From the NCBI RefSeq assembly GCF_002156875.1, contig NZ_NCSY01000005.1:62001-126000 (forward strand): a DNA stretch of 64,000 nt, given 5' to 3'. The notes beneath the pieces are model-generated. The model was not told the origin of the DNA and searched no databases. It saw only the letters and a program-made list of their open reading frames with translations. The stretch is from Bacillus sp. EAC (GTDB lineage Bacteria > Bacillota > Bacilli > Bacillales > Bacillaceae_G). Shown piece by piece: positions 19,475-57,203 of the stretch. How positions within the stretch are numbered: the first letter of the stretch is position 1; every line of letters begins with the position of its first letter. The translations under genes and the position numbers were made by a program.

Positions 19475-19670
19475 AATCGACTGCACCTCCTTCAGCTGAC
19501 AAAAGTCGAAAGTCTATCAATTCCAAATCTACATTTTACAACGTTCTACAAAATGCTACAAAACAAAATAATTTTAGCATAAATTATGTGGATAATCTAT
19601 TACCTTATGAATACACTTGTGTTAAATTTAGGATGCATTTGTAAACTTTGTTGCTATTTAATAGGTTTTT

Positions 19671-19858
19671 GGTGGATTTCTGTTCCAGGTTACTCGCTTT
19701 TCGTGGAGTCGATCTGAGTCTCCTGGGCCCACACGATGTGGGTCATGCATGCGTTACGACAGGACGTCGACGTATTAGCATGCCTACCTTTTTGACCACT
19801 GCGGGGTCTCACCTGTCCCGTTGCTCCAGCAGGAGATTATCACTTTCTCCTACGAATA
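19671..19858 (-). repeat. Family A interspersed repeat, copy A1, carrying the shared hairpin module
   Basis: A 188-bp element in reverse orientation in the 650-bp gap between the GT4 gene and the epimerase gene. Outer arms match copy A2 at 49933-50123 (GCGGGGTCTCACCTGTCCCG, CTCGCTTTTCGTGG, GGATTTCTGTTCCAGG). The centre, 19725-19796, is the same roughly 70-bp module found in A2 and in family B units, with hairpins around GTTACGACAGGACGTCG and GGGCCCACACGATGTGGG. The ends are more decayed than in A2. A long open frame across it is fortuitous. The rest of the gap is AT-rich and holds the upstream region of the epimerase gene, including a small TCCAA-CAATA-TTGGA hairpin near 20017. Confidence 0.8.
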
Positions 19859-20124
19859 AAATTGTTTAGTAACCATTTGCTTAATGCTATAAAAACAACA
19901 TTCTTTTAGGTAAAAGCCTAAATACGTATCTATATATTAGTATGAACAATGAAATGTCATTCTAGAAGAAGGATGTTCACCATTTATATACCGTTCGTTT
20001 GAAATATCTTTCTACATCCAACAATATTGGATAAATGGATTAATACTCCTATATTATGGTAAGATGAAATTATAAAGGTAACGACTAAGTCAATTGAAAG
20101 TTTATATATTAGAGGAGATTCATC

Positions 20125-21085: not shown

Positions 21086-21086
21086 A

Positions 21087-21210
21087 TTGTCTAGCTTCAC
21101 GCGTTAGTAGCTCGAGGTCAGAATCAAATGTCCAAACAAAAGTTAAAAACACCCTTTATCTAACCTAGTCTTATGCTTGTCGCTGTTGGACAAACACCTT
21201 CCGCATTTCG
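21087..21210 (-). repeat. Family B interspersed repeat, single diverged copy B4
   Basis: A 124-bp element in reverse orientation that aligns end to end with the 125-bp unit at 48201-48325. Exact shared blocks are GACAAGCATAAGAC, TGACCTCGAG and CTAGACAA, with CGAAA at the start. Read on the minus strand it begins 2 nt after the UDP-GlcNAc 2-epimerase stop codon, and its far end touches the GalE-like terminator. It may act as the 3' end structure of the epimerase mRNA. This copy lacks the 70-bp hairpin module. Confidence 0.75.
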
Positions 21211-47320: not shown

Positions 47321-48199
47321 ATGAATTTCATAGATCATAATAAAGTTTCTGCTAAAATTGGTAAACGATTAACTAAAAATAAACTTAGCTCACAACTATT
47401 CTTTTTATCAACAATCTTCGGATTATTTGTATTAGCGGTCTTACTTTATCGAGTTGGAACGCAAGGATTTTCATTTATATCTGCAGACTTTTTCACTAAT
47501 TTCGCATCTCGTATTCCTGAGAGAGCCGGAATAAAAGCTGCCCTATACGGTACAATGTGGTTAATGGCTGTCGTAATTCCAGTTTCCTTAATACTAGGTG
47601 TTGGAACAGCAATTTACTTAGAGGAATATGCAAAGAAAAACTTTTTAACACGCTTTATCCAATTAAACATTTCAAATTTAGCTGGTGTCCCATCTATCGT
47701 TTTCGGATTACTAGGTTTAACAGTATTTGTTCGATTATTCAATCTTGACCGCAGTATTTTAGCTGGTGGATTAACAATGTCACTTGTTATCCTTCCTGTA
47801 ATCGTCGTTGCATCTCAAGAGGCAATTCGATCAGTGCCAAACCAACTGCGTGAAGCTTCTTATGCGTTAGGAAGCACAAAATGGAAAACAATTTATCGTA
47901 TCGTCTTCCCTAGTGCATTACCAGGGATTTTAACTGGAAGCATTTTAGCTTTCTCTCGTGCAATCGGAGAAACAGCTCCTTTACTTGTAATAGGCGCACT
48001 TTCATATGTAGCATTCGTACCTACTGATTTATTCTCTGGATTCACTGTAATGCCAATTCAAATCTTCAACTGGACATCACGTCCACAAGAAGCTTTCCAA
48101 TTCGTTGCAGCAGCAGGTATTATCGTATTGCTTGTCATGCTAATCATAATGAACGGAATCGCTGTCTGGATCCGTAACAAATTCCAAAATAGATACTAA
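47321..48199 (+). CDS. pstA: Phosphate ABC transporter permease PstA
   Basis: A 292-residue membrane permease. GIKAALYGTMWLMAVVIPVS, NLAGVPSIVFGLLGL, QLREASYALGSTKWKTIYRI and FSRAIGETAPLLVIGAL identify PstA. AGGAGGT inside the end of pstC serves as its ribosome binding site. Unlike the usual pstSCAB order, no pstB (ATPase) or phoU follows: a repeat array starts 1 bp after the stop codon and the next gene is on the other strand. The ATPase must be encoded elsewhere if the transporter works. Confidence 0.94.
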   Translation: MNFIDHNKVSAKIGKRLTKNKLSSQLFFLSTIFGLFVLAVLLYRVGTQGFSFISADFFTNFASRIPERAGIKAALYGTMWLMAVVIPVSLILGVGTAIYLEEYAKKNFLTRFIQLNISNLAGVPSIVFGLLGLTVFVRLFNLDRSILAGGLTMSLVILPVIVVASQEAIRSVPNQLREASYALGSTKWKTIYRIVFPSALPGILTGSILAFSRAIGETAPLLVIGALSYVAFVPTDLFSGFTVMPIQIFNWTSRPQEAFQFVAAAGIIVLLVMLIIMNGIAVWIRNKFQNRY

Positions 48200-48200
48200 T

Positions 48201-48712
48201 CGAAAAGTGGAAGCGCCTTGGTCAGCCCCGACAAGCATAAGACAAAGAACAGTAAAGGTTGCATTTCACCTTTATTGGGCTTTGGCTTATGACCTCGAGG
48301 GGCTAGGCGCTGGAACTAGACAATTCGAAAAGTGGATGCGCCTTGATCACAAAGGATGGCATGTTAAAACCACGACGTCCTGTCGTAACACATGCATGAC
48401 CCACTTCCTGTGGGCCCACAAGCAAAAGACAAAGAACGGTAAAGGTTGCATTTCACCTTTATTGGGCTTTGGCTTATGACCTCGAGGGGCTAGGCGCTGG
48501 AACTAGACAATTCGAAAAGTGGAAGCGCCTTGGTCACAAAGGATGGCATGTTAAAACCACGACGTCCTGTCGTAACACATGCATGACCCACTTCCTGTGG
48601 GCCCACAAGCATAAGACAAAGAACGGTAAAGGTTGCATTTCACCTTTTTGGGCTTTGGCCTATGACCTCGAGGGGCTAGGCGCTGGAACTAGACAATTCG
48701 AAAAGCGGAAGA
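48201..48712 (+). repeat. Tandem array of family B repeats, two units carrying the hairpin module
   Basis: Three direct units plus a truncated fourth: 48201-48325 (125 bp), 48326-48512 (187 bp), 48513-48698 (186 bp) and the first 14 bp of another at 48699. Each starts CGAAAAG and ends GGAACTAGACAATT. Within a unit, AGCGCC/GGCGCT, GCCCCGA/TCGAGGGGC and AAAGGT/ACCTTT can pair, so the RNA would fold into a long hairpin. Units 2 and 3 have GCCCCGA replaced by the roughly 70-bp module (about 48349-48419 and 48536-48605) with hairpins ACGAC-GTCCT-GTCGT and CCCAC-TTCCT-GTGGG. Open frames here are fortuitous. Confidence 0.9.
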
Positions 48713-48763
48713 AAACTTTAACATCATTTCTAAATTTGCTTCCCCTGCAAATTGAAAATATAC

Positions 48764-48800
48764 AAAAAGTCCCATAGCGATAGTCGCTATGGGACTTTTT
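48764..48800. terminator. Strong bidirectional terminator
   Basis: A perfect 17-bp stem (AAAAAGTCCCATAGCGA and complement) with a TAG loop sits between the repeat array and the convergent phosphotransferase gene. Confidence 0.9.
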
Positions 48801-48801
48801 A

Positions 48802-49776
48802 TTAACTTAGGTCAATGATTGTTTTATCGTTCATAATACGCTCTTTTAATTGCTCACAAAGTTCAATGACTCTTGGTGTTTTCTCTTTTCCTTCAAATTT
48901 CATTGTTAATACATAATATAAAGTATGATCTCTACATTTTAAAAACGCTGGAATTCTACTATACCATTCTTCATCTAATATATATTCTGTTTCGTAACCT
49001 TTTCTAAAAATAGAAAGTTGTTTTTTTGCAAACGCAGACTTCTCTTCAAATGATTCTTTACTTCCCCAGGCTGTATAGTAAAGGACAATTGCGATATCTG
49101 AAATAAAGTAATTATACTGTAAGTCATCGAAATCGAATGCTGTAATTTCACCTTCATCATTTACAAAGAAATTATGTAGATGTAAATCACTGTGAATTAA
49201 GCCATATGATTTTGAATTTCTTTCGTATTCGCCAATTTCCTCTAATAGCTTTTTAGTATATGGACCTATTTCTTCGTGGTTCAGCATTTCAACTAAATAC
49301 GCATCTTCATCCCACTGTTCTCTTGAATCTGTATTTGGATAATCAACTGTTAGCGCATGAAGCTTTCCGATTGTTTTTCCCCATGTAAACATTAAATGAT
49401 CGTTCCAAACATTAGGATTCGAACGATCAACTAATTGACCATCTGCCCATTCAAACATTGATGCAAAAAAGCTTGTTCCATCACTAGCTACATGTTCCTC
49501 AACTAAATTACCGTTTAATGAAAAAAGTGATCCCGCTGCATTCGCTCCATTTTCTCGAGCATATTTTAAAAATTTGAGTTCCCCTTCAATCGCATTTTTT
49601 GAGCGATGAGACGAATGTGTTAATCTCAAAATTCGTTGTACTCCATCTTCAGTTTTCCCTTTAAATAAGTAGTTTTCAAATTCCCCTACAGGCTTTTCAT
49701 CTACACTCAAACCAAATTGAGCAGCTGCATTTTGTAAAATTTCTTTTGTAAACACTCTTTCCACGGTTTGTTCCAT
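48802..49776 (-). CDS. APH-family phosphotransferase
   Basis: A 324-residue kinase-like enzyme of the aminoglycoside phosphotransferase/choline kinase superfamily. GLIHSDLHLHNFFVNDEG is the Brenner-type catalytic loop (HxDLHxxN) near residue 198. AFDFDDL supplies the metal-binding aspartates. The N-lobe has ENYLFKGKTEDGVQRILRLTHS with a plausible ATP-site region. Substrates in this superfamily range from antibiotics to homoserine and sugars, so resistance should not be assumed. GGAGG lies 8 nt before the ATG. It is a single-gene unit flanked by repeats on both sides. Confidence 0.8.
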   Translation of the reverse strand: MEQTVERVFTKEILQNAAAQFGLSVDEKPVGEFENYLFKGKTEDGVQRILRLTHSSHRSKNAIEGELKFLKYARENGANAAGSLFSLNGNLVEEHVASDGTSFFASMFEWADGQLVDRSNPNVWNDHLMFTWGKTIGKLHALTVDYPNTDSREQWDEDAYLVEMLNHEEIGPYTKKLLEEIGEYERNSKSYGLIHSDLHLHNFFVNDEGEITAFDFDDLQYNYFISDIAIVLYYTAWGSKESFEEKSAFAKKQLSIFRKGYETEYILDEEWYSRIPAFLKCRDHTLYYVLTMKFEGKEKTPRVIELCEQLKERIMNDKTIIDLS

Positions 49777-49845
49777 CTATTTGGACCTCCGAATTCGAAT
49801 TAATAGGTTAGTTATTATGGTTTTATTCTTTTATTTAAGCGATTT

Positions 49846-49916
49846 TTACTAAAAGACTGCTTTTTTAAATCAACTAAGGTTATTCTTATTTACTAAAAGC
49901 TTCTTTTTTTAAATCA
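49846..49916. repeat. Local imperfect direct duplication beside repeat A2
   Basis: TTTACTAAAAGACTGCTTTTTTAAATCA-like sequence occurs twice about 43 bp apart (49846-49873 and 49890-49916). The segment AAATCAACTAAGGTTATTCT inside it (49867-49886) recurs exactly at 50116-50135 on the far side of A2. Confidence 0.6.
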
Positions 49917-49932
49917 TTCCTTTGATGAAGAA

Positions 49933-50123
49933 GTTGATTGGAGCGGAAGGTGCTCGACTCCTGTGGGAGTAGCGGGACAGGTGAGACCCCGCAATAGTCA
50001 AAAAGGCAGGCATGCTAATACCACGACGTCCTGTCGTAACGCATGCATGACCCACATCCTGTGGGCCCAAGGAGGCTTCAGCGCCCGCCCACGGAAAGCG
50101 AGCATCCTGCAGCGGAAATCAAC
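49933..50123 (+). repeat. Family A interspersed repeat, copy A2, carrying the hairpin module
   Basis: A 191-bp element with short terminal inverted repeats (GTTGATTGGAGCGG at the left, GCGGAAATCAAC at the right). Arms hold GGGACAGGTGAGACCCCGCA and CCCACGGAAAGCGAGC. Between them, 50001-50069 is the shared module: AGGCATGCTAATACC, ACGAC-GTCCT-GTCGT, GCATGCATG and CCCAC-ATCCT-GTGGG. It lies in the 460-bp gap between the phosphotransferase and the YesN-like regulator genes, which holds no gene. Confidence 0.85.
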
Positions 50124-50237
50124 TAAGGTTATTCTAAAATAGGGAAAAATCTTCTCGAGAAGAGCCATCTTTATTAAATATTTCACAACACTACTAATAA
50201 ATCCTGCAAAAATCAGATAAGCTTTAGCTACTATTCA

Positions 50238-57127: not shown

Positions 57128-57203
57128 GTTGATTGGAGCGAATGCGCCGAGGAGGCTCAGCGCCAGCCCCACGGAAAACGAGCATCCTCGAGTGGAAACC
57201 AAC
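57128..57203 (+). repeat. Family A repeat, short copy A3 without the module
   Basis: A 76-bp element with the same ends as A2 (GTTGATTGGAGCG left, GGAAACCAAC right) and the same right arm (GAGGAGGCTCAGCGCC, CCCCACGGAAAACGAGC). The left arm and the hairpin module are absent. It lies in the gap between cluster II and the DUF805 gene. Confidence 0.8.

Follow-up and report, generated by a model that had tools for sequence, protein, structure and literature searches.

The stretch of DNA analysed here, hereafter the window, comprises 64,000 nucleotides of the genome of Bacillus sp. EAC (contig NZ_NCSY01000005.1, positions 62,001 to 126,000), and it contains two repeat families, A and B, which share one compact double-hairpin sequence of 67 nt, here called the module. 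Family B is represented mainly by a tandem array of three units (48201–48703), the first without the module and the next two with it, and the region of the array (48200–48715) begins at the stop codon that closes a gene for a transport permease (47321–48199, PF00528). Copies of family A, two with and one without the module, are found elsewhere in the window (Table 1). In a covariance-model scan all four module copies of the window were full-length matches to RF01690, the Bacillaceae-1 RNA of Rfam, which thereby gives the module its identity.

Table 1. Module copies and host repeats in the window (G010, Gottfriedia solisilvae).
Feature	Position	Strand	Remarks and evidence
Module copy 1	48348..48414	+	Within a family B unit; RF01690, 74.6 bits
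Module copy 2	48535..48601	+	Within the next family B unit; RF01690, 74.6 bits
Module copy 3	49999..50065	+	Within family A; RF01690, 73.2 bits; orthologous A of G010 without the module
Module copy 4	19728..19794	-	Within a family A copy; RF01690, 64.6 bits; second loop CATCGTG
Family B unit without module, ~125 bp	48201..48325	+	Arms AGCCCCGA and TCGAGGGGCT both present; sequence, BLAST
Family B unit with module, 187 bp	48326..48512	+	GCCCCGA of 5' arm replaced, 3' arm retained; repeat detection, sequence
Second family B unit with module, array end	48513..48703	+	Sequence, repeat detection, BLAST
Family A host repeat around module copy 3	49932..50121	+	BLAST; comparison with same-genome A copies classed as empty
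Family A host repeat around module copy 4	19669..19835	-	BLAST, 84% to 49871–50130
Family A copy without module	57128..57203	+	Most of the left arm gone too; BLAST, sequence
Degenerate family B copy without module	21086..21210	-	BLAST, ~70% identity

The original prediction, made from the sequence alone, described a module of roughly 70 bp in both A and B copies, and all four of its copies are present with coordinates that were right to within a few bases. It also took A and B to be unrelated families, which agrees with BLAST comparisons in which the two meet only at the module and a few adjoining bases (E 0.01). A chance or low-complexity match is ruled out by the RF01690 scores, by the covariation described below and by the excess of the 15-mer ACGACGTCCTGTCGT, which with up to three mismatches occurs four times in the window against 0.25 expected. 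The sequence of the module is thus already known; no description of its nesting and movement behaviour or of its insertions into ribosomal RNA (rRNA) operons was found in the open literature, searched by repeat letters and by topic with supplementary files outside the search.

In family B the module stands in place of GCCCCGA, an exchange that had been pointed out earlier and is seen directly in the sequence. The replaced letters are part of the 5' arm AGCCCCGA, which is able to pair with TCGAGGGGCT, and the filled units still hold TCGAGGGGCT as an orphan partner arm, for which reason the filled form is taken as the derived one. Among the copies put forward earlier as lacking the module, the A copy at 57128–57203, which has lost most of its left arm as well, and the degenerate B copy are weaker examples than claimed; better A copies without it are present elsewhere in the genomes compared. 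Further comparisons were made with the relative G010 (Gottfriedia solisilvae), the species that also supplied the single locus matched when named genomes were scanned for a 24-base pattern. At the A site of window positions 49936–50120 G010 has an A copy between the same flanking genes, and the module is absent from it. The whole B array is missing from G010, where the end of the permease gene runs straight into the common downstream sequence.

Genome-wide family searches, in which matches below the RF01690 gathering score of 35 bits were counted as well, gave 55 module matches for the window's genome (53 over the cut-off) and 26 for G010. By BLAST of the flanks, 48 of the 55 are hosted by family A, all in the same orientation (one of them with a conflicting left-flank hit), and seven by family B. 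The G010 copies are more varied: 17 lie in A in the orientation of the window's genome (one placed by eye), seven are combined with A in reverse, and two have no flank recognised by BLAST and were read by eye as reversed; none of the 26 matched family B. The usual linkers between A and the module are GTGGTCAAAAAGG in the window's genome, CAAGCAAGG in the forward copies of G010 and CTCGAAAAAGG in its reversed ones. These differences in orientation and linker suggest that family A acquired the module at least three times. Among the matches listed, at least 26 A copies of the window's genome and at least 41 of G010 were classed as empty by a script, the set being composed of part of the A matches listed per genome and of the A copies beside modules. 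The position of the module is not vacant in most of these listed copies: 20/26 in the window's genome and 31/41 in G010 have a small hairpin of the GGCGCGAATGCGCC type (at least three pairs) between the left arm and GAGGAGGCT, the segment where the filled copies hold the module.

The module also occurs without A or B, in the rRNA operons of other Bacillales (genomes designated here by G numbers). In G251 (8/8 copies read) and G060 (3/3) its end adjoins the 5' end of 16S and its strand is that of the gene; in G229 and G154, from the same genus, it lies at this spot in the other orientation. Three of the operons read in G060 are filled and five are empty, the latter having the resident hairpin ACAAAAC-TTCG-GTTTTGT between the same flanks. 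Six operons read in G154 are empty and one is filled in reverse, G272 has four filled and one empty, and G292 has one of each, with a junction that differs from those of G060 and G154; the operon of G229 is filled in reverse with yet another junction. In G528 the module lies 10 nt after 16S, and in G070 it is placed between 23S and 5S or between 5S and a transfer RNA (tRNA) gene, the plus strand being transcribed with the rRNA in 6/6 copies. When 16S leaders and A sites with and without the module were read by eye, no target-site duplication was seen. Filled and empty versions of orthologous or paralogous places, as expected of small non-autonomous mobile elements, are present in the operons of G060, G154, G272 and G292 and at the A site in G010. 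The earlier suggestion of a movable or recombining cassette is supported by the filled and empty copies, by both orientations relative to A, by the one orthologous A pair and by the filled and empty rRNA operons within single genomes.

Matches to the module were obtained in 197/397 genomes sampled from the order and in 82/398 sampled from the class, the two samples having 38 genomes in common. Flanks were surveyed at the best-scoring locus of each of 30 genomes, that is, at top matches and not in a random sample, and 29 of these loci were read by eye. Ten had B-type hosts and four A-type hosts (two with A reversed), seven belonged to two further repeat types, a TTCAGTGGGG hairpin repeat (3) and a GCCTCCGGCGGATG repeat (4), and eight were left unassigned. 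As judged from these flanks, at least two palindromic repeats of other genera would join A and B as hosts of the module. By eye, a repeat GCCTCCGGCGGATGCC ... AAATCTGGGCGCAAATACGCCAAGGCGCATTTGAT was also seen to host the module in four genomes of other Bacillales (loci L085, L088, L096 and L105), and its first letters had no match in the literature searched. Pairs of modules on opposite strands adjoin each other in L100 and L104 and are ~100 bp apart in L092, so that larger palindromes are formed. Searches of plasmids with one 73-base query and of phages with one 67-base query, both of limited sensitivity, gave no match.

The consensus structure derived from 38 diverse copies consists of an outer stem enclosing one hairpin, followed by a second hairpin. 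The loops are 5 nt long with a C-G closing pair, apart from one window copy in which the second loop is predicted at 3 nt. Across the order the stems vary in sequence, but both loops and a number of unpaired stretches are conserved. In this alignment 97.4% of 646 cells are paired, and changes on both sides are seen in 15/17 pairs. Covariation scores 0.632, compared with 0.181 after shuffling, and 0/500 shuffles reach 0.632. G-U pairs are nearly absent (1/646 cells in the 38 copies; 8/1218 in 74 copies), to be compared with 81/1153 pairs, or 7.0%, in 53 tRNAs from the fetched loci. That the stems covary yet almost lack G-U suggests that they are maintained as DNA. Selection as an RNA of one fixed strand was considered through the balance of mismatches: on the plus strand, A-C, which the other strand reads as G-U, exceeds G-U in other Bacillales (25 vs 8; 16 vs 8 without the outermost pair), which leans towards the minus strand, and there is no asymmetry in the window's genus (33 vs 36); this candidate was not retained. 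RF01690 is catalogued as a small RNA (sRNA), yet the scarcity of G-U and the presence of both orientations argue against a one-strand RNA.

The presence of the module in unrelated hosts and in either orientation was observed directly, as were sites with and without it and, where sites were compared, the exchange of local sequence. From these we infer separate acquisitions by movement and the mechanism proposed below. We put at about 0.6 the probability that the module is a small mobile element of the non-autonomous kind, a hairpin acquired repeatedly and in either orientation by palindromic repeats and rRNA spacers; at several sites it would have displaced a resident hairpin or stem segment, and its host would afterwards copy it passively. 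Most likely, an extruded hairpin or the resident palindrome would provoke a break or a polymerase jump, and repair or template switching would then copy the module in, a route that would need no dedicated transposase. Once in place, the module would be carried along as the host repeat spreads. Template switching during replication can yield simultaneous compensatory changes in hairpins (PMC8794818), and it would preserve perfect stems on either strand, accounting for double compensatory changes that have hardly any G-U intermediates. If a protein uses the loops, CsrA being the best candidate, this would be a secondary role, and some copies may be used by CsrA on top of their mobility. The narrower proposal of hairpin replacement, in which a folded DNA cassette displaces another hairpin at its base, in either direction and without a transposase of its own, template switching keeping the stems perfect, is offered only as a tentative one.

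Several observations weigh against a mobile element. The term mobile rests on distribution and not on an observed jump, and there is neither a target-site duplication nor an identified catalysing enzyme. Among the matches listed, 16/67 empty A copies are without the hairpin segment that the module would have replaced, and 2/41 empty copies of G010 have a module-like start, so that some module-free copies may be deletions. (These two are tandem A copies, G010_C11_265116-268174, in which only the module start AAAGGTAGGCAT... is kept.) Only two A sites are common to the window's genome and G010 in the fetched stretches, one filled in one genome and empty in the other, the second empty in both; with so few common sites, the A insertions themselves look highly polymorphic. 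In the G060 group either the hairpin or the module may have been the earlier occupant, outgroups having neither, and the differing junctions of the rRNA operons could partly stem from later decay. Concerning the fold, four of the five measures of covariation exceeded the shuffles and the fifth, further pair types, did not (312/500), and the stability of the window copies is unremarkable against shuffled sequences (z -1.3 to -1.95). The 74 copies had been aligned by fitting them to the structure, and the tRNA control informs on G-U and not on A-C, because ARAGORN brackets permitted pairs only. Finally, the order-wide conservation of the loops suggests that something recognises them, for which template switching alone would be insufficient.

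In the main alternative the module, folded as single-stranded DNA, would be recognised and inserted by a dedicated trans-acting enzyme such as an HUH/Y1 single-strand transposase or a recombinase. Conservation of both loops and of several unpaired stretches while the stems change would fit such recognition, as would the two orientations and the hairpin-rich sites. At several sites, however, sequence was exchanged and not simply inserted, target-site duplications were not seen, and no transposase was present among the seven neighbouring open reading frames scanned (Pfam, E 1e-8), which bears out the earlier remark that none is nearby for these frames, a genome-wide search for such an enzyme not having been made. 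We regard this alternative as possible, if rather improbable.

A comparable standing, that of a possibility we doubt as the main explanation, is given to the reading of the minus strand as a CsrA-binding RNA with two AGGA loops, many dispersed copies of which would titrate CsrA, selection then favouring its spread in repeats; it is compatible with a mobile cassette. The reverse complement of Bacillaceae-1 was noted to resemble CsrA-binding hairpins, its discoverers being unsure of the strand (PMC4333381, 2014), and the minus-strand loops CAGGACG and CAGGAUG fit the CsrB repeat CAGGA(U/A/C)G as given in PMC7652899. On the minus strand both loops are intact with respect to this motif in 29/38 diverse rows and in 43/74 rows, and the excess of A-C over G-U in other Bacillales (25 vs 8 on the plus strand) has the direction expected for a minus-strand RNA. 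The distribution of csrA points the same way: the module is present in 194/374 csrA-positive against 3/23 csrA-negative genomes of the order sample (Fisher p 0.0003), in 79/233 against 3/165 of the class sample (p 1e-17) and in 2/4 against 0/15 of the window's own family (p 0.035), p values that are inflated because the genomes are related. Also, the csrA-negative G069 has ten matches of which the best reaches 55 bits, the best scores of three congeners with csrA being 65, 79 and 81, and the csrA-negative G051 has two poor matches, one of them below the cut-off.

Against a CsrA function, stratification by family (six usable families) leaves a csrA effect of z -2.4 (observed 2 vs expected 4.4), which without the window's own family is not significant (z -1.1). 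Good copies occur in genomes without a csrA hit (seven in G581, best 78 bits; six in G070, best 66 bits), and the csrA-positive G008 and G018 of the window's family lack the module. The loops of the module have 5 nt, whereas 44/55 selected CsrA ligands were reported with 6-nt loops (PMC7652899), and they do not conform to the ANGGAN hexaloop that typifies high-affinity sites. In the window's genus both loops are intact in only 14/82 aligned rows although csrA is present; the second loop reads CATCGTG in 44/82 rows, and its TCCT is kept in 17/82 and lost in 65/82, one place being counted twice in this alignment. The G-U to A-C balance there, 36 to 33, favours neither strand. Orientation relative to neighbouring genes has no clear bias, since among 81 copies 34 have both neighbours on the same strand as the module and 22 both on the opposite one, the others being divergent (11), convergent (5), inside a called open reading frame (7) or beside a single neighbour (2). 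Next to rRNA genes it is the plus strand that is transcribed in G251, G060 and G070, and the orientations beside 16S are opposite among relatives. As a separate observation, csrA was not found in 15/19 genomes of the window's family (G000–G018), which is unusual given its presence in 374/397 genomes of the order. At locus L090 a gene for RNase P RNA (1017–1412) and a module (1501–1567) are separated by 88 nt and lie on opposite strands.

A plus-strand RNA whose UCCU loops serve rRNA maturation or bind Shine-Dalgarno sequences is highly improbable. The TCCT loops noted in the original prediction as complementary to Shine-Dalgarno sequence are indeed present on the plus strand, and this strand is transcribed with the rRNA in G251 (8/8), G060 (3/3) and G070 (6/6). 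The proposed function is unsupported, however: at the same 16S spot the module is reversed in G154 and G229, five of the eight G060 operons read do without it, and the module copies of the window's genome and G010, contained in 122 merged stretches, have no rRNA within those stretches. The absence of a clear gene-orientation bias and the retention of the second-loop TCCT in so few rows of the genus speak in the same sense.

A single longer ancestral repeat that always contained the module, the module-free forms being deletions, could draw on the uniform place and orientation of the module in the A copies of the window's genome and on the two partial-deletion look-alikes of G010, but it is the least probable reading of all, being opposed by the two unrelated hosts, the reversed orientation in G010, the GGCGCGAATGCGCC-type hairpin at the module position of 51/67 empty A copies among the matches listed, the orphan arm in B and the rRNA leaders in which the module stands alone. 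One fixed place in a single ancestral repeat, named in the original prediction as what would refute it, is thus not what the group as a whole presents.

Outside the A copies, further sequence likenesses were noticed. An outer end resembling GGCTCTTTTCTAAAAGATTGTTG (up to six differences) is found beside A in 39/65 copies of the window's genome, against 32/1220 random pieces and 8/59 copies in G010, and one resembling AGCAACAAAGTTTACGAAAACAGCC in 30/65 copies, against 13/1220 random pieces and 1/59 in G010. In the window, such ends were recognised by eye at 19624–19660 and 19895–19920. Family A may itself be nested in a larger element resembling miniature inverted-repeat transposable elements (MITEs), which would make three levels of nesting.

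Bacillaceae-1 was published in 2010 and is an sRNA in Rfam, and the literature searched gives it no tested function. The csrA pattern makes the CsrA-binding proposal of 2014 directly testable in Bacillales. If the module is a mobile hairpin cassette, the annotation of Bacillaceae-1 changes, and the compensatory changes behind its RNA-like look need another reading. Hairpin replacement, if correct, would be a mode of mobility different from transposition, with nested repeats and rRNA leaders as landing sites, and would turn Bacillaceae-1 from an sRNA gene into a DNA element. The three filled and five empty leaders within the one genome of G060 constitute a system in which the movement of a small hairpin element can be tested.

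Small palindromic repeats of the repetitive extragenic palindrome and bacterial interspersed mosaic element (REP/BIME) type occur in high copy number, are mostly intergenic and palindromic, and are found in both orientations. The module is similar to them in these respects; it differs in that local sequence was exchanged where it became nested in other repeat families. Small, dispersed and insertion-polymorphic like the module are MITEs, for instance bcr1 of the Bacillus cereus group; for the module, however, neither terminal inverted repeats nor a duplicated target was visible by eye at the 16S leaders and A sites, and it is accordingly not classed as a MITE. Similar to the module in size and abundance, as compared by description only, are the Bhal-1 and Bhal-2 stem-loop families of B. 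halodurans, another member of the Bacillales, with 74 and 76 bp and dozens of copies, Bhal-2 being noted as containing clustered regularly interspaced short palindromic repeats (CRISPR) (PMC2267715). The CsrA sponges CsrB, CsrC and RsmZ resemble it in their paired hairpins, the minus strand of the module having CAGGANG loops (PMC4333381; PMC7652899), but the loops of the module are 5 nt long, it is dispersed in repeats without clear strand preference, and its second loop is altered in most rows of the genus. The closest relation is to Bacillaceae-1 RNA itself, which was entered as a likely RNA whose role is probably other than cis-regulatory (Weinberg et al., 2010; PMC2864571), was counted as 10 motifs in a Brevibacillus genome (PMC5764928) and appears without a function in the accessible text of a later list (PMC9029176). 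The sequence and structure are the same; what differs is the behaviour seen here, that of a cassette nested in repeats and rRNA spacers in both directions.

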